Below are positions 20,165 to 62,039 of a DNA stretch of 64,000 nucleotides, in pieces. Where the stretch lies: NCBI GenBank assembly GCA_028554795.2, contig CM068824.1:156035789-156099788 (forward strand). Reading direction: 5' to 3'. The stretch's first letter is position 1, and the number at the start of each line of letters is the position of its first letter. A model generated the notes under the pieces. That model was given only the letters and a program-made list of their open reading frames with translations. It ran no database searches and was not told the DNA's origin. The stretch comes from Sinohyriopsis cumingii. Its lineage: Eukaryota; Mollusca; Bivalvia; Unionida; Unionidae. Position numbers and translations under genes: made by a program.

Positions 20165-21236
20165 TAAATTTTAGACATACATGTATTGCTATAAGTTTCA
20201 GATGAAGACACATGTAATGCCCACTGAAAATCACCAACCATTTATACCAGATTGACAACACCTACAGTGGAAATGAATTTCTAACCCAAAATGATGTTTC
20301 ATTACAATTAAAGTGCCAACTAAAACCACTTTTTCCTTGATTATCCATAAAGTTAGAAGTGGATTTTGTAGAAATCTTCACCAACATTAAGTGTTTGTTT
20401 ACACATCCTGTTAACATAAAATTGTGAACGACTTCCTTATTTCATTGATTCTAAAAGGGAACTAATTTAAAACCACACAGAAAAAAAAGTTAAAGACAAA
20501 GTGTTATTAGTCAAAATATAAAATGAACTGCAATTCTAGAAATCTGGCGTGTCACAGAGATCCTTCACAATAAAGCCCTTCAACATACTACTGCTCCCCA
20601 TATAATGTTGACATGATCATGGATTCCATTCAATTAGTCAAATTCTGCTTTACTACAGCAGTTTCAGCAACAAGTATTTCATCTAATTTTAATCCTTGTT
20701 TAATGATACCCAATCACTGTTATTTCACATTATTAAATATGTAATTAAATGCACCACTTTTTCCTTTTTTAATGAACTGTTATTACACATCCTTGTTGGA
20801 AAATACTTCACTAAAAGGTGACCTCCTTGTACAAGGGAGGAGAGTATTAATAATTATAAAGTAGCCCACTATCCTAAGGGCAATACATTTCCAGACAGAC
20901 TAGTAATTTTCATACTTTCAATATCAACCACTTTGGTTTTCATAAATGATCTCGACAATAAAGAGACTGAATGGAAGTTGAGTACAACCTCAGGATACTT
21001 AAACATGGCACTCAGAGTTTATGAGTTAATGAGTCTGATCAAAGCACAACGACAAAATAAAAGTTACTGTGTATAACCCAAAAATGACAGACAAATAGGA
21101 GGAAGGAATGAACCAACATCATTATATAATATACCTTATAACAGGTATATTGCAAAAAGCAGTGAGGAAAATCTAATCAGGTCTGCTCTAAATGCATGGA
21201 AATATAGTTAGTGATTAATGGTAATAATGAATCAGT
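20165..21236. other. Intronic sequence, no recognised feature
   Basis: AT-rich apparently unique sequence. No repeat unit, exon or element end recognised. Confidence 0.45.
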
Positions 21237-21246
21237 CTGAAATAGA

Positions 21247-21690
21247 CATGCACTCATTTGTACTGCTGTAAGGCTGTACAGACATACACTCATTTGTACT
21301 GCTGTAAGGCTGTACAGACATGCACTCATTTGTACTGCTGTAAGGCTGTACAGACATGCACTCATTTGTACTGCTGTAAGGCTGTACAGACATGCACTCA
21401 TTTGTACTGCTTTAAGGCTGTACAGACATACACTCATTTGTACTGCTGTAAGGCTGTACAGACATGCACTCATTTGTACTGCTGTAAGGATGTACAGACA
21501 TGCACTCATTTGTACTGCTTTAAGGCTGTACAGACATGCACTCATTTGTACTGCTGTAAGGCTGTACACGATGTACAGACATGCACTCATTTGTACTGCT
21601 TTAAGGCTGTACAGATATGTACTTATTTGTACTGCTGTAAGGATGTACAGACATGCACTCATTTGTACTGCTGTAAGGCTGTACAGATAT
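21247..21690. repeat. 36-bp minisatellite (12 units)
   Basis: Unit 'tgcactcatttgtactgctg' then 'taaggctgtacagaca'. Both strands read open for about 160 codons only because the period is 36 and the unit has no stop in those frames. No start context, splice context or flanking coding sequence supports a gene. Confidence 0.96.
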
Positions 21691-22227
21691 GCAGTTACAC
21701 AGGACTTCTCATTATGCTCCTATGGCACATGCAATTATAGGACTAAAACAGGACAAGAGACAAACACTAATAAATCCATCCATATAGTGGTGTAAACAGA
21801 CATAAAAAGCAGCAAAAAATATCAGAGAAACCTGAGGATAACCTATCTCAGTTAGCTGACTGAGAAGAGAGTGTGAAAAGGGAGAGAATGCATTTTTTAG
21901 GCTAGTTTTTGTCTTATCTGCAAAGCGTATGTGAGACACTGGTATGACTTTTCAAATGCAATTGTCATTGTTGCTGTTGGCAAAGACATCAACGTTACTT
22001 TAGCATTTAGTTCAACTTCTCCAACACTGCTTTTGGCTTTTTTTTTGTATAGATTCTGATGCATGCGTGGAAGGCAGCATCACTCCACCACCAGAAATGC
22101 CATATATAAAACCCACAACAACAAAAAAATCACATATTTTGGCACCCACTTTAATTACAACAAAAACAACAACAACAATCCTGCCCATACGTTAGGTAAA
22201 TGTATGATTTTCTTCAGCTAACTGACT

Positions 22228-24759: not shown

Positions 24760-26270
24760 TCAAACAGAACAAAGTTATTGAAAATCAAAAATAAGTTTTA
24801 CATTTTTAGCACAAGTACAATTTTGTTTGTGATCAGGCAGTTTCATGTGCAAAATACTTGTTTACTTGTAACTTGAGACAAAATGACTGAGAAATAATCT
24901 TAATATAGTACCAATAGAAGAATATTCTTCTTCCTTCTTGAGCTATTTTTAAATATCCCCTTTGACTTGTTGCTCAACGCCTACACATGTCTATTACTGG
25001 ACTATCAGTGTAAGTAATTCCAAAGTATTATTCTGAAAATGAATATTTTAAAAAAGACCATGGTTCTATCCTCACAATCTACTCTGTGACCCCAGTTGTG
25101 AAAAGGTCTCCATTATATCACTGTCACAAGCCACATAAATAAATCCACTATGCGGCTTGCAGTGATGCTATGAATAAAATCCTTACTCATCCTTTACACG
25201 CAATTCATAACTCGTTTGTTATATGCCATTCAATGCAAGATGTGCCCACTCGTAAACACTCACTGCACAATTGACAAGAACAAAATGCCTTGGTAATTAA
25301 CTGTCCAGTAAGTACAGTCACACTTACCAGTATTTCCCCCTGTGGATAATTATGACAAGGGAAAAATCACTTTTGAGCAAGGAAGAGTAAATGGGAATTT
25401 TCTGAACTACTTCAGGCTTGGCCGCCAAAGACTTTTAGAATTTCTAACTTTCAAGTATCAGTCTGAATTTTCACTATCTTCAAGCTACTTTTAAGAATTA
25501 TTAAATTTGGGGCCACTTCTGGACATTCGTTAAATTCTTGACAATGATAATCGATAAAGTACATTGGCACATTTAAAAGACCTGAAGGTCATGGAGTTAA
25601 ATGAAAGACCTGAAGGACATGGTGTTAAGTGAAAGACCTGACCATGCTGATAATGAACCTATATATGGTGCATGATTTTGAAATCTGGGTTGTGATAAAG
25701 GGTTTAGGGGGCACTGAGGCACCCACCAGTCAGTGAACCTGCAAAAAAACTGGTGTGTGATTTTGAGTTTTGTGGCATCTTGTTATTTGTGGAAATTATT
25801 TTTCTTCTTTGGTCTCAGTGAACATAGCCTTTGTACTATTGACCCTGAAATCAAAAATGTCCTTGTCTCAAATGCAAGCCAACAACAAAGTTTGATCATT
25901 TGACTGTGCCATACATCTCACATTTTATAGTGTGGAAACTGACTTTTTTCTCCAAGTCTCCCTGACCTTGACCTCTGATGATTTAAATTCCAAATCAAAG
26001 GCATCATCCTCATCTAAAATGCAAGCCATTTACCATGTTAAATCAATGCAGGTGATTGTGTGGATTAGTTTTCCTCCTTTCAGTCCCTTTGACCTTTTGA
26101 ATCCAAAACAGTTTCTTCTCCTTAGTGCAAATTCAAGCTACTTATAATGTTTGGTAATGACAAACAGCAGAAGACAAAAGTCACTGTGTAAAAATGAAAC
26201 AGGATGGATGTACAGACAACACTTTAGTATGACATGATTCATCATATGATGGGCTTATGAAAAAACAGTA
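24760..26270. other. Intronic sequence with a short duplicated patch
   Basis: Apparently unique, except 'aaagacctgaaggtcatgga' recurring about 37 bp apart at 25577-25650. No coding evidence. Confidence 0.45.
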
Positions 26271-26277
26271 TAGCAGT

Positions 26278-26760
26278 AAATTACACAATGTTGATTATCT
26301 ATCCAGACTCTTCCTCATTCTGACCTATTCAATGTCAGTACAAATTTTTCTTTATCCTGTGTCCAGACTCTTCCTCATCCAGACCTATTCAAAATTGTAC
26401 AAATATTTCTTTATCCTGTGTCCAGACTCTTCCTCATCCAGACCTATTCATTGTCAGTACAAATTTTTCTTTATCCTGTGTCCAGACTCTTCCTCATCCA
26501 GACCTATTCAATGTCAGTACCAATTTTTCTTTATCCTGTGTCCAGACTCTTCCTCATCCAGACCTATTCAATGTCATTACAATTTTTTTCTTTATCCTGT
26601 GTCCAGACTCTTCCTAATCCAGACCTATTCAATGTCATTACAATTTTTTCTTTATCCTGTGTCCAGACTCTTCCTCAGCCAGACCTATTCAATGTCAGTA
26701 CAATTTTTTTTTTATCCTGTGCACCAATTTCAGTCTAGACTCGTCCCTCATCCATACTTG
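26278..26760. repeat. 60-bp minisatellite (about 8 units)
   Basis: Unit 'gtccagactcttcctcatcc' then 'agacctattcaatgtcagta' then 'caaatttttctttatcctgt'. Edge units at both ends are degenerate. Plus-strand frames read open through it because 60 is a multiple of three. Confidence 0.95.
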
Positions 26761-26919
26761 TTCAATGTCAATCCTCTGAACATACAATTTGTTATTATCC
26801 TGACAGAATTCATGTCTGACAGAAAGTCTGGATAACAGATATTTGAATAAAGCATGTCCTTTATCAACTTTAATAAATTACATATGTGCATTACTATCCT
26901 TAGATTCCTATACACATTA

Positions 26920-31317: not shown

Positions 31318-31592
31318 GTCAGTGTAAAGGTAACTGATAATCCATTGTCATCAAAAAGAAGTCATCCATAAGCAAGCAGTGAGAAAATTAACACTGCTTG
31401 AATTTTATGAAATACATTTCAGCCCAACACTGAATAGAGAAATTTTTAATTGCTAAAAAGAAATTTGTTGGGTCAACAGCTACTGGATATTGAACATAAG
31501 GTCTCTGGTCGTCAGATTTATTCTGCTGCAATGTGATATTTTGCTCAGCATGAAATTAACCCTAATAGAGTTAAACGAAAAGGTCATCAGCC

Positions 31593-31990
31593 CCTCCTGT
31601 GTCTACTTCCATTTAAGTTACAGAACAAAAATTACAACAATGGACTGTGTCTATTCCCATTTAAGTTACAGAACAAAAATTACAACAATGGACTGTGTCT
31701 ATTCCCATTTAAGTTACAGAACAAAAATTACAACAATGGACTGTGTCTATTCCCATTTAAGTTACAGAACAAAAATTACAACAATGGACTGTGTCTATTC
31801 CCATTTAAGTTACAGAACAAAAATTACAACAATGGACTGTGTCTATTTCCATTTAAGTTACAGAACAAAAATTACAACAATGGACTGTGTCTATTCCCAT
31901 TTAAGTTACAGAACAAAAATTACAACAATGGACTATGTCTATTCCCATTTAAGTTACAGAACAAAAATTACAACAATGGACTGTGGATAT
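31593..31990. repeat. 48-bp minisatellite (about 8.5 units)
   Basis: Highly homogeneous unit 'gtgtctattcccatttaagt' then 'tacagaacaaaaattacaac' then 'aatggact'. The plus strand reads open as a 16-residue repeat (VYSHLSYRTKITTMDC). The low divergence suggests a recent expansion. Confidence 0.96.
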
Positions 31991-32182
31991 TTGTTAGCAA
32001 CATTTATTTCTTAAATAATGTACATAGATACAAATGGTAACATCAGATCGACCTGGAAAGTATTATTTGTTTATTTGAAATGTACATGCCCTCCTGGACT
32101 ATCATCCTACTGCCCGGAAAGAATTTCAAGTAATTCAAGGCAAGACCATTTCATTTTTTTTAAAATGAAGATTGTTGAAACT

Positions 32183-44204: not shown

Positions 44205-45052
44205 GCATAGACCCAGCTATAACACCATAGGTGTTAATGTTTTATGCATAGCCAAATGCAAATGCTACATAGAAACAGCTCTCACACCATACATCTTCAT
44301 TTATAATTATGCACAGTCAACTGCAAAAGTTGCATAAACTGAGCTATACCATATGTTAACTTATAATGCAGAGCCAACTGCAAAAATTCTGCAAAGATGA
44401 GTTATAACACATTAATGTATAATGCATGGCCAACTGTAAATGCTGCAGAGAGGAGTTATAACACATTAATGTATAACATATACCAATTGTAAATGCTGCA
44501 AAGATGAGTTATAACACATTAATGTATAACGCATGGCCAACTGTAAATGCTGCAAAGATGAGTTATAACACATTAATGTATAACGCATGACCAACTGTAA
44601 ATGCTGCATAGATGAGTTATAACACATTAATGTATAACGCATGGCCAACTGTAAATGCTGCAGAGAGGAGTTATAACACATTAATGTATAACGCATGGCC
44701 AACTGTAAATGCTGCAAAGATGAGTTATAACACATTAATGTATAACGCATGGCCAACTGTAAATGCTGCATAGATGAGTTATAACACATTAATGTATAAC
44801 GCATGACCAACTGTAAATGCTGCAGAGAGGAGTTATAACACATTAATGTATAACGCATGGCCAACTGTAAATGCTGCAAAGATGAGTTATAACACATTAA
44901 TGTATAACGCACGGCCAACTGTAAATGCTGCAAAGATGAGTTATAACACATTAATGTATAACGCATGGCCAACTGTAAATGCTGCATAGATGAGTTATAA
45001 CACATTAATGTATAACGCACGGCCAACTGTAAATGCTGCATAGATGCAGCTC
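44205..45052. repeat. 54-bp minisatellite (about 15-16 units)
   Basis: Unit 'tgctgcaaagatgagttata' then 'acacattaatgtataacgca' then 'tggccaactgtaaa'. Left units are degenerate, central ones nearly identical, with alternating aaagatgag, tagatgag and gagaggag forms. The 227-codon minus frame is an 18-residue periodic read-through. Confidence 0.96.
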
Positions 45053-45485
45053 TAACACTATGAATGCAACTGACGAGCTGAATATACTTCCTGTTGATGT
45101 ATTTGTTTTTACTTGTCTTAATGCTATCTGCATAGACTCCGGCTTGCATTATACAAGAGTCTACGCTGTATGAAACTTGATGTATGTTGTAACTGTGTTT
45201 TCAAGCTATCACTCTAATTTGTCATTTCCTGAAAAAAAACATCAATCTTGTGTGCCATTGTGTTATATAAGGACATGTATATAAAAATGAGTTGTAGATT
45301 GAAAAGACATCTTTGATTCAGCAGATTTCCAGTCTCAGTTTTCCCAATTATTCCACCAATCCTCTATTTCCACTCTGAGTGTTATAATCATGTACTACAT
45401 ATATATGAACAAAATCATATATAAAAGGAACTGGCCAACATTATACATAAAAATGAGAGCCAAGTGCTAAAAACAAAGCAATATA

Positions 45486-47739: not shown

Positions 47740-47914
47740 CTGAAAAAGAAACACTTCCTGATACATGTGGACCTGGTGGATACGAATTTGATTTAACTTT
47801 TGATGAATTTTCATCTACTAATCCGTCTGCTGTCGAATGTGTGTTGTTCTTATCCTTTCCTTTAAGACCGCCACTACCTCCCTTGTGGAAGGATAAGGAA
47901 TGCTTGCCCCCCAT
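47740..47914 (-). CDS. Src-family kinase, alternative first coding exon (MGGKHS form)
   Basis: 58 codons plus one base, beginning MGGKHSLSFHKGGSGGLKGK and ending VSGSVSFS before the donor ag|gtttgt. Gly2 with Ser6 fits the N-myristoylation rule (MGxxxS/T), and Lys4, His5, Lys11, Lys18, Lys20 and Lys22 give a basic membrane-facing patch. There is no cysteine, so palmitoylation of the kind expected for MGNCC is not possible. The remainder is Ser/Gly-rich and disordered, as Src unique regions are. An in-frame TGA lies 12 bp upstream, so the ATG is the first in its frame. No convincing acceptor lies just upstream, so it is more likely a true first exon with its own promoter. The start context is weak (C at -3). 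Joining to 35033 gives SFS-A-SKGCLRALYDY in frame. Confidence 0.8.
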
Positions 47915-47930
47915 GAGGAAAAGTCACCAT
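47874..47930 (-). other. Overlapping upstream ORF at the MGGKHS start
   Basis: An ATG 16 bp upstream, in a better context (A at -3, G at +4), opens an 18-codon frame (MVTFPHGGQAFLILPQGR) that overlaps the main start out of frame. It would depress translation of the MGGKHS form unless the transcript starts downstream of 47930. Confidence 0.5.
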
Positions 47931-49860
47931 ATTTAGCAAAAAGTGAAACAAAATGGAGGGCACTCAAACCAAACAATGATGAAGCCAAGTGATTATTCAA
48001 CAGATGCCCTAAATTCACATTGTTTCTCTTCCTCTCAACACAAAATCCCTGCTGCTTTTAAAACTACCGGTGACTAATAAATGGTCGACACAGTCCTGGT
48101 ATACACACTGTCAACATAAATGAACAAGTGCACTGGTTCAATATACATGACTGAGTACGCAGGTGACTTGTCTGGTCACACTGTAATGAACACAAACACC
48201 CCAGACATTTCTAGTGGAGCAGCCATACAAAAGGCTCTGCGTGTTTGTTAATTATATTGTAGAGTACACAGAAAACCACCCAAAAGAACCTAACTAAAAT
48301 TCGTGCACTTAAAGGAATTGGTTTTGAAATTTCAGTGGTTGCACAGGTAAACAGGTCAGTGCTTGGCTGTCAAAACAAACAGATACAAGGTTGAAAAATC
48401 AATGCCTGCTACACAAAGTCAATATATTAAAGGAAATATTTATTGGAATTCAAGGACAATTATGTATATTTCTTTTGGAATCTCACCAATTGACATGAGC
48501 TGCTCATAAGCTGCACATGAGAACCTTGTTAGAAATGTAAGGAAACGGGGTATATTTTGCAGGCTCATGTGTGCAGTTTGTTAGATCTTGTGAGCCAAGG
48601 AAAAATTAACCGGATTCTCACATGTGCAGATTTTGCTCACGTGAGAATCCAAATTTTCACACGAGAAAGTAGAACTTAGAAAACATTCTTTTCCATTACA
48701 TACAACCATTTTGATTAAACACTTATTTCAAATTTATTCAAAGTTGGATTTTCTCATGCGAGTTATCACATGAGCAATTTGGACTTAAATATTTTGTGTA
48801 AATGTTAAATGTCGAGCATCCAGATTATTGTCAAATAGACATTATTTCTATTTTGCACATGCTGCTGCTTTGTTGTTTTTTTTAAAATTTTAAAACATGT
48901 CAACTTATTTTCTCACTCTGAGTTTTAGTCTTATTCTGACCCAACAGTCTCAGCCACATCAAATCAAGTTGAGGCTACAACATCGTAGCTAAAAAGAGTA
49001 TATATTACATGCCATTATTACAGAAAACTGTATGAAAAATGTATAAGCAGTTAAAAAGTTTGTCACAAATCAGCTGAATTCATGTGGATTAGTAGTAAAG
49101 ATGAAAATAGACACAAAAGAAATTGATAAATTATTTGTACATAGCACTCACTTCAACCAGTGTACATGTCTAGAATAACTTTTGCGAATTGTCATAAAGT
49201 CCATAAATGATGACTGTTGTATTATCCTCAACCTGCCATGGTTCATTCCATAACGACGGTACGGTGCAACATGTTTTTAAGTTTAACAAAATCCCTCTTC
49301 TCTAACATTTTTCAGTCACATAACATCCATCAGTCACATTGATACATCCCGAGGTTTTTTGTTGTTGTTTTTTTCTATAAAATTTTTTTTTTATGATATC
49401 TGGCACCATTTATTTTCAATTTAAGCTGGACTGCTATGTGTGTAGTATCATAATAGAATGAATCTAGGGCAAATGGTTTCACATTCAAAAACCTGTCTGT
49501 TTTGTTGGAACTGTTTGATGTAAAATTCATGCAGAATTTACCAATGCGTGAATTTTTATTCAATTTTTTTTAAACTGTTATTAAGTAGCAAACTTTTTTT
49601 ATTCTTTATGTTTAAAGATTTCAGTCTGTATAGTTGTCCGTTTCGTTAATTTTTTTTTTCCTAACATGGTATGAGAAGTGCATGTTAAGGTAGCCAAGTT
49701 AAACCAGACATTCATAATGTGCTTTCTTTTATTTGACCCAGTTAATGTCGTCAGGATCTGAAAACAAGAGTGTTTTAAGTCATGAGAAAATTGGCACACG
49801 AACCATGGACAGGCATGAAGTTAGGATGGTCAAGCTTGAAATATCAGCACTGATTATTAA
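47915..49860. other. Upstream of the MGGKHS exon, with an E-box-like palindrome cluster
   Basis: Candidate 5' UTR and promoter region of the alternative first exon (minus strand). Between about 48490 and 48785 there are many variants of CTCACATGAG/CTCACGTGAG ('gctcacgtgagaa', 'tctcacatgtgc', 'tatcacatgagc'). Nothing else recognised. Confidence 0.4.
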
Positions 49861-49942
49861 ATAGGTCACTTGAGAAAGGAATGTATTATTATATAGAACA
49901 CATATGACAAGTAAATTGTGAGCAACCATACAAGCCCCTGTG
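49861..49942. mobile_element. Fragment related to the 42013 palindromic MITE
   Basis: 'gagcaaccatacaagcccct' followed by gtg matches the right end of the 92-bp MITE ('gcaacgatacaagccctgtg'). The left end was not found. Confidence 0.5.
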
Positions 49943-50164
49943 ATGAATAAATGCATACATGACACAAGCCTCGAATTGTAATTATTAGTCTGTCTTGATC
50001 TGAGCTTGGAACACTTTTTTTAACGGGTACCCAATTGTTCGTTTTATTAACCAGGTTATTATCAATGGGAGAGTACCTGGTTATCCATTGGCATCTTTAC
50101 CCAGAAGTAGTCAAATTTGGAATATGCGATGTGACTTGCAGGTATCTCCTCAATAGTGCAGTTT

Positions 50165-50345
50165 ATATGTTTGCTACTGAACTATGGTAATTCTATTGGT
50201 AGAGCAATTTGACTCATAGTCCAAAGGATGAATTTTCAGACTGGGTTGGCTGCATAAGTGTGTCCTTGGGAAAACAGTTGGTTCCTATTTTCACAGTGTG
50301 AGATAGACACTGTGTTAAAGTGCCATCTAATCCAAACTACAATTA
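50165..50345 (+). mobile_element. tRNA-derived SINE, family C (copy 2, diverged)
   Basis: Box A-like 'attggtagagcaatttgactc', then a body with 'gtgtccttgggaaaacagt' and 'gtgttaaagtgccatctaatc'. Diverged from the copy at 53688. Confidence 0.6.
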
Positions 50346-50732
50346 TGTAGTTTGCCTTTACCTTGTCAAACAAATCTTCAAAAATCCACCTTACAGAATG
50401 TCTCATATGCTGTGATCAGAAAAAAAACTTGTACCAACTTTTTTATTTCCATTTCAAGTTTCATTTTTCAACAGTTCAAAACTGAGCCTGCTAACTTAAA
50501 TTCAGTGGACAGCAGGAAGCGCAATGATTCAAAGAGAACAAACTCCAAGTGAAAATGTTGCAGACTGGCAAATGATGAAATTCAGAAGCAGGAATGTCAA
50601 TTACACATTTTGTTTGCTTTGAATTTTCTGGAACAGTGAAGAATGGTCTTCATGTGAAGCAAATTCACAGCAGTATCTTTCATTATGACCTTAACGTTTG
50701 TAGAATGAATGTGATGTATTAAATATAACAGG

Positions 50733-50763
50733 TACATACATACATACATACATACATACATAC
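50733..50763. repeat. (CATA)n microsatellite
   Basis: About seven tetranucleotide units. Confidence 0.95.
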
Positions 50764-50904
50764 TCTAGTTGTCTTATCTTATTAGAAGATCACTAATCAA
50801 ACTCAAATAATATGCTTATGATTACTAGATTTGAATATTGATCTGACTGTTTAATTCTTGTAAAAGATGTATGTATTCAATAAAAACTAAATACTATAGT
50901 CATT

Positions 50905-51130
50905 TTTTGTTGCTTTTGCTCATGTGAGCAAGATGTTGCTCACATAAGCAGACTTGCTCACATGAGCAGATCTTGCTCATAAGCATGCCATTTTCAGATG
51001 AGCAGACTTGCTCTTGTTAACAATTCCCGAACATGTGATTTTCTTATTAGAAACTACTTCCTCACATGAGTTCTACCTAATTTGCATGTTAAATTGCACA
51101 TGAGACTAACCTGACTTAAATCTCACGTGA
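50905..51130. repeat. Cluster of CTCACATGAG-type palindromes
   Basis: 'gctcatgtgagcaa', 'gctcacataagc', 'gctcacatgagcag', 'gctcataagc', 'cctcacatgag', 'gcacatgag' and 'tctcacgtgag' occur within about 225 bp. A similar cluster lies at 48490-48785. Confidence 0.6.
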
Positions 51131-51322
51131 GAATCTCATGCAGAAGGGTAGGCAGTTTTGGTGTGGGAAACCCTTTTGAGAATCTCATGCAGAAGGGTAG
51201 GCAGTTTTGGTGTGTGAAACCCTTTTGAGAATCTCATGCAGAAGGGTAGGCAGTTTTGGTGTGGGAAACCCTTTTGAGAATCTCATGCAGAAGGGTAGGC
51301 AGTTTTGGTGTGGCAACCCTTT
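51127..51322. repeat. 49-bp minisatellite (4 units)
   Basis: Unit 'gagaatctcatgcagaaggg' then 'taggcagttttggtgtggga' then 'aaccctttt'. It starts inside the preceding palindrome cluster. Confidence 0.95.
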
Positions 51323-51439
51323 TGCATAGCGGTTTACCATTTACCGGTGTGTCAACTTTTCTTGTTGTTTTTCTTGCTCCAAACATAACATTAAGAGTTC
51401 CTTGGCCTATATACTTGAATGCTGGTCCCTTCAATTTTC

Positions 51440-51530
51440 AAATTACTCGAACCCATACTGATATGGGCGAGATGTCGGTCATCTGTAAAGACTACCACCT
51501 TAAACCACTTTGTCACCCAGCACCCCTACA
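51440..51530 (-). mobile_element. tRNA-derived SINE, family A head fragment (copy 7)
   Basis: On the minus strand: 'gggtgctgggtgacaaagtg', then box B-like 'gggttcgagtaat'. Only the tRNA-like head survives. Confidence 0.65.
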
Positions 51531-51687
51531 ATTATCAGTGGTCAATTTTCCCATTTTATACTGCTTCTTACATGCAAGCAGCCATTTATCATCAGGCAAA
51601 TTTCCTGGCTCGAGGAAATTATTGCAATATCAAAGAAATTCTTCAGCAAAGCAAGGATTAAATCATATACCATATATTATTTTGTTT

Positions 51688-51937
51688 TTGTTGTTGTAGG
51701 GTTTAATGCCATTTTTCAGCACAAGATGGGTTATACATGGCGGCCAGTATAAATGGTGGAGGAAGAACCTGGGAAAATCCTGGAAAGAAGCACCGACCCA
51801 CAAGAAGCTACTATCAAGCTTTCTCACATACCCACATTGGCCAAACCCCGAGACTCAAACCAATGCAGACAGAGGTCAGATGGCAGTGATCTGTAATGGT
51901 GAGTGCTTTAGACCACTCAGCCACTCGGGGGCCCCTC
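51688..51937 (-). mobile_element. tRNA-derived SINE, family A (copy 8)
   Basis: Full-length with head ('tggctgagtggtctaaag' on the minus strand), body and (CAA)n tail. 'ccatatat' occurs on both sides (about 51671 and 51939), so a short target duplication is likely. Confidence 0.9.
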
Positions 51938-52098
51938 CATATATCATGGAAAATTGCTCTAATTTCATATCAGATTAAATAACACCTATAAATAACCAAG
52001 CCAGGAGGAGGATATTTTTGTTTTTTAATCCTTAAAATGCATAAACATAGCATGAAAAAAATGTCAAATTTTAATGTCTGGAAGAAAAATAGAGTAGA

Positions 52099-53470
52099 GT
52101 AATAATAATAATGACTTTATTTAAAGAGGGTAAAACAATTAGCTAAGAACTAATCTACCTTGAGACCCTCATACAAAGGAATTTATTTATTTAAGCTGCA
52201 TCTCTGAAGCCACTGGATATATTGGGTTTGATAAAAGGAAATTTATAATCTCAACTGGAATACTATTCCAGAGCAGAGTTCCAGAGTATTGAAAACTTTA
52301 AAAAATAATTCCTCATTTGGTTTGGGAATTGAATACTGTTTGGTAGACATGGATCGCAGGTGGGGAGTATTGCCAGGTAGCCTATACTGGAATAGTGATT
52401 GTAAATATTCAGAAGCACTATTATGAGATATCCTGTACATTAATTTGGCTTTTCTCAAACAGATTTGGTCTTTAATAGATAATATTTTTAACCTACCAGC
52501 TAAATTCTCCTTGCTTTGTTTCTGGATTGATATTAACCCAAATGCTCTTTTTTGTTTGAAGATGTGCCAGTTTTGCTATGTTTTTATCATTTGAATTACC
52601 CCATACTGTATTACAATAGTCTAAATAGGGTTGTATGTAACTGTTATAAAATAGTTTTCTGTACCTTTCAGGGAGAAGATATCTTATCCTACTGAGAAGC
52701 CATAAACTTGAATTGGCTTTTTTTAACTGATATCTTTTATATGTTCAATCGATGATAGGTTATTATTTACCAAAACACCAAGTAGTCTATCATGACAAAC
52801 CATTTGCAGATTTTTATCCTTCCATGTTAGACATAGTTCATCACTATCAAGATTTGTCCTTTTTTGCCAAGTTGAGATAAGTAATATTTTAGTTTTACCA
52901 GTATTTACCACCATGCCCTTGCATATGCCCCAGTTTTTTAGGGCATTCTGTAAAGAAATTTCGAGTTCATGTTTTGTGTTTTGCATGTCTAACAATGTTG
53001 CATCATCTGCATAGAGATCTGTAGATGATATTGAGTCCCTTAATAAAAATGATAGGTCATTAATAAATAAAATAAATAGTAATAGACCTAGAATTGAGCC
53101 TTGTGGTACTCCAAATCTAATTGTTCCAGGTTCAGACAGTTGTTGTTGTAAGGTTTAATGCCATTTTTCAGCACAAGATAGGCTATACATGGCGGCCAGT
53201 ATAATTGGTGGAGGAAGAACCCTGGAAAACCCCGGGAAGAACCACCGACCCACGAGAAACTACTGGCAGGCTTTCTCACGTACCCATGTAAGCCAAGCCT
53301 GAGACTCAAACTCACGTAGACATGGTGAGATGGCAGTGATCCGTAACGGTGAGCGCTTAAGACCACTCGGCCACTCGGGGCCCAGGTTCAGACAGAACAT
53401 TATTTATAAAAACAGAGTCATTTCCAGCATGCATTCATCTGTCTGAAACAGCCACTGTTCTTCAGGCCCC
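52099..53470 (-). pseudogene. 5'-truncated non-LTR retrotransposon (LINE 1), reverse transcriptase part
   Basis: The minus strand codes the second half of a reverse transcriptase: GVPQGSILG, the catalytic YADD box (53002-53013), NTGKTKILLIS, LLGVLVNN, then RYRKLFYNSYIQPYLDYCNT and VWG. These blocks, in this order, are the palm and thumb of Jockey/CR1-like LINEs, which copy RNA into DNA at the insertion site. A one-base frameshift near 52725, the lost 5' part and a SINE inserted at 53140-53381 make it non-functional. The 3' end is an (ATT)n tail at 52099-52113. The exact clade cannot be given from this fragment. Confidence 0.85.
53140..53381 (-). mobile_element. tRNA-derived SINE, family A (copy 9), inserted in the LINE
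   Basis: Full-length copy. On the minus strand the head is 'tggccgagtggtcttaagc', box B-like 'gagtttgagtctcagg', and the tail is (CAA)n. A 14-bp duplication ccaggttcagacag (53126-53139 and 53382-53395) flanks it, exceptionally clear. Removing it restores the LINE frame just upstream of GVPQGS. Confidence 0.94.
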
Positions 53471-53687
53471 TTAATCCAAATTGGTGCACAGACTGAACCT
53501 TTATTTTAAGCATCCACTTCCACATGTTACCATTAATTGTAACCAAAATAGCTATTTGCAAATATTTTTCCTTGCTGGCTTTTGGATACTGCTTTTTTTT
53601 CTTCTTCCTTCTGCATATTGTAAAACAAGAACTATGTTGTGATTACCAGCTAAATTCTTCTTGTTTGGGATTTTTGTTTGTTTAACA

Positions 53688-53870
53688 GGACTTTTAATAA
53701 AAATAATGGCTAAATCATGCAGATGAAATTAAAGTTAGGTGTCTTTTCCCAAGGACACAATAAGGCAGCTGATCAGGGCTCTCTTGGACAGGTATTCAAC
53801 CCATGACCCTTAGATTACAAGTCTGACACTCTACCAATGGGGCTAACATGAATCCCAATTAAATTTAGAC
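53688..53870 (-). mobile_element. tRNA-derived SINE, family C (copy 3)
   Basis: Best family C copy. On the minus strand: box A-like 'ccattggtagagtgtcagac', then 'cttgtaatct' at the anticodon position, which suggests descent from a tRNA-Thr(TGT)-like gene, box B-like 'gggttgaatacc', and the body motif 'gtgtccttgggaaaagacac'. Not a functional tRNA: the acceptor stem is not paired. Confidence 0.75.
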
Positions 53871-54769
53871 TGCTAAAGTAATTCTGCCTATTAATGGAAA
53901 TTAATTTTGTATAAACCATTCTTCCATTGATCAGGTTGAAGTTGGTCTTATGTACATTTTTGGGGGGTTGATGATACAAGTCAGAAGAAATGATCTGTTC
54001 GTGGGTTTTGTTCATGGCAATCTTCTTGATTTAAAACCCTCCTCTACAGTACAAAGAAACCTGAAAAACTATATGCTCATAAAGACTTAGTCTCCAATCC
54101 AGGTTCACATTTAGCATTTTCTAGATAAAAAAGCAAATCCCAACATTTGAACAATATGACTGTGTTTATTGATGATACAAAAGACAACCAAAATATCATT
54201 GGATTTTTTTAAAGGAATCTGGTGCCAGAAGTGCAAGTATATGAGAGATATATATTAAGTTGGACAATTAGTATTTGGTACTAACAAGTTTCTGTTCATA
54301 AAAGTTCCAAACAATGCTGAAATTGAAACTATGGAAATGAGTTCTGAGTTTGTTTTGAATTGCTTAAAGATATATGGATGTTTCCAAATCTATGCAAACT
54401 CCAAGATATTAAAAATGTAATACCTTTAAATTTTTGAGTGCTAATGATATCAGTATAGATGCATCCTGGATAATGGCTTCTGTGTAGAGAAAATGATATG
54501 TACAATGGCATTTTCTGGACCTACATATGTCTGAAACGCGCTTTCAATTCTGCACCAAAGAGTCAGGTGCAAATTTCAGTTAAATGAGTGTTCAAAACTC
54601 AATACTGTTTAAGAACTGAAATTCCATCAATAAAACAATGTCTCTATTTTTTCAGTTACAACTAGGATAAGATCTCAAAAGATTCTTTTACTAAAATCTA
54701 ACGTTCATTATCAACCAATCTTGGCCAGCCAAACCCATATATATTCTATTTTATCTTCACCTCTGGCTC

Positions 54770-56040
54770 GCATTTTTACATACAATTAATACCAGGTGTC
54801 CTATTTCCACCCTTGAATTTCTTGACAGAGCTAGGAATAGTAGATGAATGCATAGGTAAGCACTGTGCATAGTTTTGCTTGTCAAAGACTGCATTAGGGA
54901 ATATTAAATTGTACTGCAAGTTCATGTTCAACAATAAAGCAACTGTGCATTTCAGGCAACATTTAAGTATTTGAGCTTTATTTAAGAAAATCAGAAAAAT
55001 ATGGAAGAGATACTTGAGTTGACTTAATACCATGAGGAGTATTATTCCAAATAAGTTCACATGAAATTGAAAACTATTTTTGAATGACTTCTTTTTCTGG
55101 CATGGGTACTCTGAAATTATAACCTGTTGATATCATAAATTGGGGTATTTTTTCATGCATTGTTAATGCTTTGGTAACATGCATTGCATTTTGAAAAATT
55201 ATCAATTATTTTACATGCCTTTTCCTGGAGTCAGGAATTGTTTCTCATATTTGTAGCAGCTGGATTTCCCAAAAATTATATTACAGTGGTCAAGATGGGT
55301 TTGAATGCAATGTTTGTGAAATGTAACTCTACCATAATGGAATGTCAAGGCCATGCTTTTCTTTTTTGCTGTCTTGTTCTTTCAGCCATGTGGTTATAAG
55401 TTGGACTACTGTTTTATTTCTACTGAGGATCATGTTTTCTTGCACCATAATTCTGTTGAGAGCAGTTGGAAGGTTTCAGCCTGTTTATTCTGGGCAACAA
55501 ACAAGGTATGCGTAGTTTCATCAGCATACATGCAAGTTGATGAGACTGCATCTCCTGTCTCCATGGGTAATATGTGAACAGAACAAGTAACAAGGATCCA
55601 AAGATAGAACCTTGTTGTACTCCATAACTTATGGTTTTATTTTCAGATATTTTCCATTTAATGTTACCGATTGGGATCTATTGCACAAGAATGATGTGAA
55701 CCACTCAATAGTATCATTACAACATTGACAGAATTTTAACTTTGCAAGAAGAATTTCATTGACTTTATCAAAGGCTTCTTGAAAATACATCAGTATAATA
55801 TCTTCTAACTTTCCTTCATCAGAGACATTCAACCATTTGCCAATCATCAAAACATGTGAAATTTTGCAATAATGATCTTTTCAAAGGCTTTTCTAGTTAT
55901 TTAGGAAGAGATGGAAGAATTGATATTGGTCTGTATTTTATTTTACATCCTCTTTTGATTCAGCTTTGTATAGTGGTATTACTTTGGCAGTTTTCCAAGA
56001 ACTGGGAATCTGACTTGCTTCCAGACTGTGGTTACATGGA
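54770..56040 (-). pseudogene. Decayed non-LTR retrotransposon (LINE 2), reverse transcriptase part
   Basis: Minus-strand fragments in the expected order: WKTAKVIPLYKAES (about 55980), PISILPSLPK (about 55930), FQEAFDKVNEILLAKL and WFTSFLCNRSQSVTLNGKYL (55850-55629), YGVQQGSIFG (about 55600), MYADETT (about 55530; the catalytic YADD carries D to E) and HLDHCNIIFGK (about 55290). The tail end codes ENYAQCLPMHS-like text near 54850. Several frame breaks and stops separate the pieces, so it is long dead. Clade probably CR1/Jockey-like. Confidence 0.8.
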
Positions 56041-56154
56041 AAGGTAGTACACTGTGGTAGTATACTGTACTATCAGCTTTAGGACACATGGTATTAACTG
56101 TATGGAAAAAAGGGAACCAATCTGAAAATCGCTAAAGATAAAACAGAGTATTTA

Positions 56155-56928
56155 TGAGTTTGGCTGCAGATAAATACATGTATATGCAGTACCAGACACT
56201 GCAGATATATACATGTATATACAGTACCAGATGCTGCAGATAAATACAATGTATATACAGTACACACACTGCAGATAAAATACATGTATATACCAGACAC
56301 AGCAGATAAATACATGTATATACAGTACCTGACACTGCAGGTATATACATGTATATACAGTACCAGATGCTGCAGATAAATACATGTATATACAGTACAC
56401 ACACTGCAGATAAATACATGTATATACAGTACACACAATGCAGATAAATACATGTATATACAGTACACACACTGCAGATAAATACATGATTATATAGTAC
56501 CAGACGCTGCAGATAAATACATGATTATACAGTACCAGACACTGCAGATAAATACGTATAAACCAGACACAGCAGATAAATACATGTATATACAGTACAC
56601 ACACTGCAGATAAATACATGTATATACCAGACACTGCAGATACATTTCATGTATATACAGTACCAGACACTGCAGATAAATTCATGTATATACAGTACCG
56701 AGACACTGCAGATAAATATGTGTATATATACAGTACCAGACACTGCTGATAAATTCATGTATGTACAGTACCAGACACTGCAGATAAATACATGTATATA
56801 CAGTACCAGACACTGCAGATAAATTCATGTATATACAGTACCAGACACTGCAGATAAATACATGTATATACAGTAGCAGACACTGCAGATAAATACATGT
56901 ATATACCAGACATTGCAGATATCTAGAG
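56155..56928. repeat. 35-bp minisatellite (about 22 units)
   Basis: Unit 'cagataaatacatgtatata' then 'cagtaccagacactg', with shortened units lacking 'tacagtac'. Open frames on the minus strand switch between the three frames through the 35-bp period and are not genes. Confidence 0.96.
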
Positions 56929-57594
56929 CAGTAGTACTACTATTGGGTGTAAATTGCAATGATGCGCTCAGAGCGATTGCCTCGTTTTAAAAAGCAGATA
57001 CATGTCTCAAATGTTTGAAATAAAATGTAAAACTTTTGATGGTAAGATTTTCTTGCAATCTGTTTTGAGAAAGGCAAATTAGGGAATGTAATTAAATGTT
57101 CTTATCAGTTTTTTTTAAGGACAATTTGTCAAGACAGGACCATGGCAAAATTACGGAATTGTGTCTAAGCTTTGTCTGTAAAAAGAAAGGCTGGATTAGA
57201 ACTGGTGCAGAATTATTCTGACTTTTGATAAAACCATGATTAAAGCAAACATAGCATTTTGTTTTCAATCAAAAGAGATTTTATTTTTTTAAATCCCAGT
57301 ATACATTGAGTTTTACCACAATGTGTGGAAAAGCAAAATTTTATGAGAACTGTTAAGCAAGACCTTCTTTTTTCTTTAATAAAATCTTTGATTTGTAAGT
57401 CCTCACTAACTAAGCAAGAAACTGAACTCTGGAAAGCTTAATCTGGTCATAAAGACTTCACAATATGCACACTGATGTATTTTTAAATAAAAAAAAAGAA
57501 GTGAGACCTGTGCCACAACATCATGCTTCATGGAAAAAACAACTAAGTGGGCAAATCAAAACTTGACATTCAATTAATGACATGATTAAATTAC
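56929..57594. other. Intronic sequence after the MGNCC exon
   Basis: AT-rich and apparently unique. Contains the donor of the MGNCC exon at its right edge (caag|gtaatt on the minus strand). Confidence 0.5.
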
Positions 57595-57772
57595 CTTGTG
57601 GTGTTGAAGCTTCGTTCTGTGGCTGCCTGTTTACATTTCTCGTCGGATCTTCCGAATAGCGATCTATGCTGTTAGGTTTGGTGGTAGCATTGCTTGTTAC
57701 TTCTTTATTTGCAATATCAGAAAACTTCTGATCTACATCATTTTTCTGTCCAGATACACAACAATTTCCCAT
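57595..57772 (-). CDS. Src-family kinase, alternative first coding exon (MGNCC form)
   Basis: 59 codons plus one base, beginning MGNCCVSGQKNDVDQKF and ending NEASTPQ before the donor caag|gtaatt. Gly2 is the myristoylation site; Cys4 and Cys5 are likely palmitoylation sites, the usual dual anchor that places Src-family kinases in lipid-ordered membrane. The rest (for example SNATTKPNSIDRYSEDPTRN) is a polar, disordered unique region. The start context is strong (A at -3, G at +4) and an in-frame TGA lies 12 bp upstream. Joining to 35033 gives TPQ-A-SKGCLRALYDY in frame. MGNC starts also occur in Src42A-type kinases. This exon has an upstream acceptor, so a further 5' noncoding exon should lie at higher coordinates. 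Confidence 0.92.
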
Positions 57773-60344: not shown

Positions 60345-61765
60345 ACTTGTCTAAACACTCCTTTTTAATACAGCAGTGAAATACTAACTTGTCTAGATAC
60401 TTTTTAATACAGTAGTGAAATACTAACTTGTCTAGATACTTTTTAATATGGTAGTGTAATACTACTTGTCTAGATACTTTTTAATATGGTAGTGTAATAC
60501 TAACTTGTCTAGATACTTTTTAATACAATTGTGTAATACTAACTTGTCTAGATACTTTTTAATATGGTAGTGTAATACTAACTTGTCTAGATACTTTTTA
60601 ATACAGTAGTGTAATACTAACTTGCCTAGATACTTTTAATACGGTAGTGTAATACTAACTTGTCTAGATACTTTTTAATACAGTAGTGTAATACTAACTT
60701 GCCTAGATACTTTTAATACGGTAGTGTAATACTAACTTGTCTGGATACTTTTTAATACGGTAGTGTAATACTAACTTGTCTAGATACTTTTTAATATAGT
60801 AGTGTAATACTAACTTGTCTAGACAGTTTTTAATTCAGTTGTGTAATACTAACATGTCTAGATGCTTTTTAATACAGTAGTGTAATAATAACTTGTCCAG
60901 GCAGTTTTTAATACAGTTGTGTAATACTAACTTGTCTAGATACTTTTTAATACGGTAGTGTAATACTAACTTGTCTAGATACTTTTTAATATGGTAGTGT
61001 AATACTAACTTGTCTAGATACTTTTTAATACAGTAGTGTAATACTAACTTGTCAAGACAGTTTTTAATACAGTTGTGTAATACTAACTTGTCTAGATACT
61101 TTTTAATATGGTAGTGTAATACTAACTTGTCTAGATACTTTTTAATACAGTAGTGTAATACTAACTTGTCCAGATACTTTTTAATACAGTAGTGTAATAC
61201 TACCTTGTCTAGACAGTTTTTAAAACAGTTGTGTAATACTAACATGTCTAGATACTTTTTAATATGGTAGTGTAATACTAACTTGTCTAGATACCTTTTA
61301 ATACAGTTGTGTAATACTAACTTGTCTAGATACCCTTTAATACGGTAGTGTAATATTAACTTGTCTAGACACTTTTTAATAATGTAGTGTAATACTAACT
61401 TGTCTAGATACTTTTTAATACGGTAGTGTAATACTAACTTGAAGAGATACTTTTTAAAATGGTAGTGTAATACTAACTTGTCTAGATACTTTTTAATACG
61501 GTAGTGTAATACTAACTTGAAGAGATACTTTTTAATACAGTTGTGTAATACTAACTTGTCTAGATACTTTTTAAAACGGTAGTGTAATACTAACTTGTCT
61601 AGATACCTTTTAATACAGTAGTGTAATACTAACTTGTCTAGAGAGTTTTTAATACAGTTGTGTAATACTAACTTGTCTAGATACTTTTTAAAACGGTAGT
61701 GTAATACTAACTTGTCTAGATACTTTTTAAAATGGTAGTGTAATACTTGTCTGAATACTTCCATG
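60345..61765. repeat. 39-bp minisatellite (about 36 units)
   Basis: Unit 'actttttaatacagtagtgt' then 'aatactaacttgtctagat', with alternating tacagtagtg, tatggtagtg, tacggtagtg and tacagttgtg forms. The minus strand stays open for 309 codons as a 13-residue repeat of the type KKYLDKLVLHYCI. Its lack of splice context and presence of similar arrays elsewhere make a protein unlikely. Confidence 0.96.
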
Positions 61766-62039
61766 TATAGAGTTCAACGACCATGGGATGAATGGTCTTA
61801 TAGGTGTAAATTAGAATTACCAGAAAACCAGCCTGAAACAGTCACTGTGAATGCATTTAAGACTCTAAACACACATTGGTTCAAAATGTGATACATTCTT
61901 GCGTAAAACATTGAAACAGTGTATACTGAGCAATATTCCTACCAAGAGCCACCCACCCACCCATGATATAAAAACATGAACTTGCCCCAAAAAATACTTT
62001 CAACATTGTGAGATGAAGATGTACATGCAAATGCCCTGA

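Follow-up and report, generated by a model that had tools for sequence, protein, structure and literature searches.

Can a single Src-family kinase gene supply its product with two different membrane anchors? This question is raised by a 64,000-nucleotide stretch of the bivalve Sinohyriopsis cumingii (GCA_028554795.2, contig CM068824.1, positions 156,035,789 to 156,099,788; hereafter the window, numbered from its first letter, with genome coordinates prefixed C1, genome G000), which carries two candidate first coding exons, termed A and B, each encoding an SH4 segment ahead of a common SH3 exon. The site of action of a Src-family kinase is set by the type of its membrane anchor, and a gene with both anchors on one catalytic body would make it possible to study what the anchor does free of differences between paralogues. 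From the analysis below, we consider it likely that the two first coding exons of this Src-type gene are mutually exclusive alternatives, which would place one kinase on different membrane anchors; exons A and B are probably both real.

Both first exons are minus-strand features. Exon A (57772-57595, 178 nt) encodes an SH4 segment and unique region, MGNCCVSGQ...ASTPQ/G (the slash marks the exon boundary), and ends in phase 1 at the donor AAG/GTAATT. Exon B (47914-47740, 175 nt) encodes an alternative SH4 segment and unique region, MGGKHSLSFHKGG...SVSFS/G, and also ends in phase 1, at the donor CAG/GTTTGT. The first SH3 exon, common to A and B (35033-34934, minus strand, 100 nt), has the acceptor CTCCAG and the donor CAG/GTACAA, and is followed by a second SH3 exon (9737-9624, minus strand, 114 nt); Pfam SH3_1 was detected on the joined SH3. 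The last base of exon A and of exon B, a G in each, combines with the CA of SH3 exon 1 to form an alanine codon (G/CA), and the joined A-SH3 and B-SH3 frames were both open, as read from the sequence. Coordinates and frames thus agree with the initial annotation, which had described two minus-strand first exons, both in phase 1, joining one SH3 exon through an alanine codon. Donor scores, obtained with a generic table, were 3.41 for A, 1.97 for B, 1.29 for SH3 exon 1, and 2.34 for SH3 exon 2.

The window alone ends before SH2, and the designation of the gene as a kinase was borne out by the SH2 and kinase exons beyond it (G000:C1:156035613-156005437). Reading of C1:155986000-156035800 revealed another seven exons, each with an AG acceptor and all but the last with a GT donor, and an intact stop. 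The gene therefore comprises 11 coding exons including both first exons, or 10 per transcript, with common exons of 100, 114, 104, 150, 165, 260, 154, 132, and 209 nt and assembled proteins of 521 (A form) and 520 residues (B form). Pfam analysis of the A form showed SH3_1 (66-117), SH2 (132-214), and PK_Tyr_Ser-Thr (255-500), in Src-family order, and the best match among solved structures was c-Src (625.8 bits), followed by Fgr (587.5), Hck (575.8), and ABL1 (386). DDEYNPKQG aligned to DNEYTARQG of Src and STEPNY to STEPQY, placing the activation-loop and tail tyrosines, which we take to be the regulatory residues. The locus is an intact Src-family kinase gene, nearer to the Src family than to Abl. 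The SH4-unique-SH3-SH2-kinase-tail order and the regulatory tyrosines are those of c-Src and its family (SRC, YES, and FYN; the invertebrate Src64 and Src42A types), and the common exon sizes resemble those of vertebrate SRC, with SH3 exon 2 longer by five codons; unlike these genes, which have one SH4 exon, the window gene has two alternative ones.

A genome search with B plus SH3 led to a tandem paralogue on the same strand (G000:C1:155952152-155853254), whose exon B lies approximately 53 kb beyond the end of the window gene (stop at 156005437). The paralogue carries a B-type exon of 175 nt (G000:C1:155952152-155951978), followed in order and on the same strand by two SH3 exons (C1:155944598-155944499 and 155934505-155934386) and by seven more exons to 155853254 with AG/GT splice sites, and encodes a complete 523-residue kinase that shares 79.5% identity with the B form over its length, with a ratio of nonsynonymous to synonymous substitution rates (dN/dS) of 0.26 in the core. 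Its B-type exon matched at 51% identity over query residues 1-68 (expect value, E, 8e-10) and reads MGGKHSLCFFKGGSGSPKERDK...SVSHA, including a cysteine at position 8. The codon at its first junction is Glu, versus Ala in the window gene, and its SH3 exon 2 measures 120 nt versus 114 nt. The two B exons differ by 43 substitutions in 175 nt, with no indel and no stop, and an identical 12-nt donor context. The main block of similarity (47999-47727, minus strand) extends 85 nt before exon B and 13 nt past it (blastn, 273 columns, 79.1% identity, 1 gap base), and two short islands of 31 and 63 nt lie deeper in the intron after it. Flank identities from the aligner were set aside, as unrelated controls averaged 0.77 and reached 0.84. 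A protein search of the genome, covering the best candidates at E up to 10, detected no A-type exon for the paralogue. As the B-type exon is the sole SH4 exon detected there, the paralogue, if expressed, most likely starts from B; and given that a B-type exon was detected in it and an A-type exon was not, B appears to be the conserved anchor type and A is, as far as these matches go, found only at the window gene.

The two N-termini differ in the features expected to govern membrane attachment. Exon A has cysteines at positions 4 and 5, correcting the annotated Cys3-5, and a net charge of 0 over residues 2-23; for its product, myristoylation of Gly2 and palmitoylation of Cys4/Cys5 are predicted. 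Exon B has no cysteine and a net charge of +4 over the same residues, and its MGGKHS start fits the myristoylation pattern; the prediction for its product is myristoylation of Gly2, with the basic stretch of Lys4, 11, 18, 20, and 22 helping to hold it at the membrane. Either phase-1 donor would join the common SH3 exon, yielding one regulated kinase with different anchors. PMC10783869 lists myristoylation alone for Src, and both myristoylation and palmitoylation for Fyn, Lyn, Yes, Fgr, and p59 Hck. By its cysteines (two versus none in B) A resembles the latter class, and B resembles the Src class by its charge. The suggestion that one locus makes a dual-acylated and a myristoyl-plus-basic kinase therefore gains from the two SH4 exons and their contrasting cysteines and charge, and is weakened by the Val at position 6 of A, which departs from the myristoylation pattern; the cysteine-free character, although found in the window exon, does not hold for every B-type exon, given Cys8 of the paralogue. 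We infer the use of both junctions, the choice by start site as opposed to splicing from a leader common to both exons, the attachment of lipid, and the differing membrane locations from these features.

The sequences upstream of the two exons suggest how each would be transcribed. We reject exon B as an internal exon after A, since its ATG is preceded by an in-frame TGA at a distance of 12 nt and no site within 700 nt upstream passed the single acceptor rule that we applied. Upstream of A (start context AACAAACATGGG), one acceptor-like site, CTACAG/TCTGG, was the only one to pass that rule within 700 nt; it lies 108 nt before the ATG, with 57880 as the first exon base, and would define 57880-57773 (minus strand) as the putative 5' untranslated part of exon A. 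Such sites occur at about 1.0 per kb on the minus strand, making this one weak evidence. The lack of an acceptor before B and the presence of one before A suggest that B has its own transcription start, probably inside the A-SH3 intron, and that A follows a leader exon, probably noncoding.

An 18-codon upstream open reading frame (ORF; 47930-47874, minus strand) overlaps the start of exon B out of frame and is present with the same stop in the paralogue. Its ATG lies 16 nt before that of B and has an A at -3, a better context than the C at -3 of the B ATG. The 26 nt immediately before the B ATG are identical in the two genes, and the 60 nt before it show 91.5% identity, above exon B itself. 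This conserved frame may restrain the B form. Upstream ORFs do not appear peculiar to B, since the putative leader of A also has them.

Several observations weigh against the use of both exons as anchors. For exon A, Val6 breaks the myristoylation pattern in spite of Gly2, a protein search of its own genome returned, among the best candidates at E up to 10, a match solely at its own locus, and the putative leader contains four upstream ATGs, one overlapping the A start. As A departs from the pattern and no relative of it was found in the genome, the case for it rests on anatomy, namely Cys4/Cys5, the start context, and the donor; Pfam returned one family with exon A, below threshold. For exon B, the whole-exon dN/dS against the paralogue was 1.13 (bootstrap 0.55-2.84), indistinguishable from neutral, and the proportion of nonsynonymous differences (pN, 0.25) was not significantly below the synonymous proportion of the core (pS, 0.28; Fisher p 0.56). 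Purifying selection was not seen in the exon B frame beyond SH4, and a frame subjected to 43 randomly placed substitutions would stay open with a probability of 0.10. Codons 1-16, the SH4 segment, gave a dN/dS of 0.26, a figure that rests on nine changes (five nonsynonymous and four synonymous). A low value there and no purifying selection seen in the rest fit an anchor under constraint ahead of a rapidly evolving unique region; this is not proof, because Src-family unique domains, according to PMC4075076, are divergent between members and well conserved within each member. Finally, the upstream ORF would cut translation of B unless transcription starts between the two ATGs or scanning is leaky.

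These observations have to be set against three other explanations of exon B. That it is a chance open frame is highly improbable. Codon statistics do leave room for this, since A and B both fall within the range of noncoding open stretches and the measure is thus uninformative. However, when ORFs beginning ATGGG, at least 30 codons long and reaching a phase-1 donor with a score of at least 1.2 were sought in the 64-kb window, the minus strand yielded two (A and B) and the plus strand one, and only B carried the myristoylation pattern. Markov nulls for the A-SH3 intron, with 400 sequences for each of orders 2 and 4, gave an expectation of 0.03 (order 2) and 0.0425 (order 4) for ORFs of any kind with 57 codons or more; for those with the myristoylation pattern it was 0 (order 2) and 0.0025 (order 4), and an order-3 null gave 0.007. 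A B-like ORF in this intron is therefore expected by chance 0-0.007 times. Among 499,602 strand-bases of the same genome (all loci of the analysis together contained 5,000 N), four non-repetitive places and a single tandem repeat gave matches of at least 30 codons, and the pattern was absent from all of them. The paralogous exon, at E 8e-10 and with equal boundaries, also stands against a chance frame; since a complete tandem paralogue retains an exon of the B type, we regard a chance origin of B as very unlikely.

It is more plausible, although still unlikely, that B is a relic in the window gene, the paralogue having kept B after the tandem duplication while the window gene uses only A. The B-type exon is the sole SH4 exon detected for the paralogue, the whole-exon dN/dS of B is near 1, and the overlapping upstream ORF and weaker context make for a poor start. 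Yet the window exon retains its ATG, open frame, and phase-1 donor, together with the 26 nt before the ATG identical to those of the paralogue, and its 175 nt are free of indels, compared with 13 gap bases in the intron adjoining SH3 exon 1 (a block of 293 columns in which the exon itself is gapless). The SH3 exon 2 block does not serve as an indel control, as 6 of its 8 gap bases in 240 columns are attributable to the difference in exon length. Less probable again is a transcribed alternative first exon B whose role is mainly translational or regulatory, the upstream ORF keeping B protein low or conditional. Both copies retain the 18-codon frame with its better start context and its stop, and the 60 nt before the ATG are more alike than the exon; nevertheless, the downstream frame is uninterrupted in the two genes and has the character of an SH4 anchor, and two copies do not suffice to distinguish the upstream ORF from SH4 as the target of constraint. 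The use of both exons as alternative anchors thus remains the explanation that we favour.

A fuller scheme, which we put forward tentatively and at somewhat less than even chance, combines an anchor switch by first-exon choice in the window gene with a tandem copy that has only the myristoyl-plus-basic anchor, its own start region, and the conserved upstream ORF. If true, anchor types would be divided up within one gene as well as among neighbouring genes, a snapshot of the isoforms of one gene turning into two genes, and the neighbouring copy, in which only a B-type exon was found, would illustrate isoform partitioning after duplication.

Known kinases and calcium sensors offer partial parallels. 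The p61 form of Hck is not known to be palmitoylated. As described in PMC3798898, p59 Hck is found at the plasma membrane, in palmitoylated and non-palmitoylated forms, and p61 is lysosomal; the title of its reference 61 attributes the two murine isoforms to alternative initiation codons. The window gene would resemble Hck in directing forms of one kinase to different membranes, but with alternative SH4 exons instead of alternative initiation codons. The view of the initial annotation that vertebrates achieve the anchor distinction with separate genes was thus too strong, since Hck makes p59 and p61 from one gene. In KChIP genes, alternative 5' exons and promoters provide N-termini with differing membrane-association motifs on a common core (PMC3973911); the passages on this name KChIP1 only among myristoylated mammalian forms and do not describe a choice between myristoyl and palmitoyl within one gene. 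The likeness lies in alternative 5' exons with different membrane motifs, although KChIPs are unrelated calcium sensors. The related kinase ABL1 has alternative first exons before SH3 (1a and 1b), one form being myristoylated, and a '1B isoform' was named in a PDB record returned by the structure search; unlike in the window gene, the other ABL1 form is not known to have an acyl anchor, and a palmitoyl-or-basic choice is not known there. Alternative SH4 exons in a Src gene were not found in the literature searched, in the parts accessible, which excluded subscription papers and database isoform predictions. Forms of one kinase at different membranes are known from Hck and alternative 5' exons with different membrane motifs from KChIP genes; the combination in a Src gene was not seen in that literature.

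Further searches concerned relatives of B and other Src-type genes. Exon B is not a duplicate of A, as the two do not align. No further copies of B were found in the 344 kb examined or, paralogue aside, in the genome-wide protein search (best candidates only), and B matched none of the solved structures and no Pfam family. In searches for relatives, a sequence pattern matched 8 stretches in a virus contig collection and 113 in a prokaryote genome contig collection, none confirmed, as expected for such collections. Two candidate intronless B-SH3 copies were rejected: C1:142964770 belongs to a gene with its own MGGCLSC start, and C1:125440145 is a degenerate SH3 copy; they provide no evidence of a B-SH3 retrocopy. 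The former gene (G000:C1:142964400-142966500), Src42A-like by resemblance, has SH4, unique region, and SH3 in one exon with this cysteine-bearing start. Many copies of Src-type SH3, SH2, and kinase exons lie at G000:C1:134.47-135.20 Mb and 125.42-125.44 Mb; in some of them stops interrupt the match, and one apparently lacks its acceptor; no A- or B-type SH4 exon was detected among them. Together with the Src42A-like gene, these copies indicate that the animal also has separate genes, and they may represent a lineage-specific Src expansion. Kinase-family matches also form arrays approximately 7.7 kb apart at G000:C2:2.64-2.78 Mb, C193, and C603, most in 459-amino-acid open frames.

Scans for repeats around the exons, for tRNA, and with Rfam revealed nothing bearing on A or B. 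Elsewhere in the window, minus-strand fragments at 52243-53154 and 55420-55880 resemble, by eye, the reverse transcriptase of long interspersed nuclear elements. Long ORFs at 21177-21795, 26233-26835, 31457-32040, 44466-45200, 56094-56906, and 60835-61773 resemble tandem repeats by eye, and repeat analysis confirmed a tandem array at 56164-56906.

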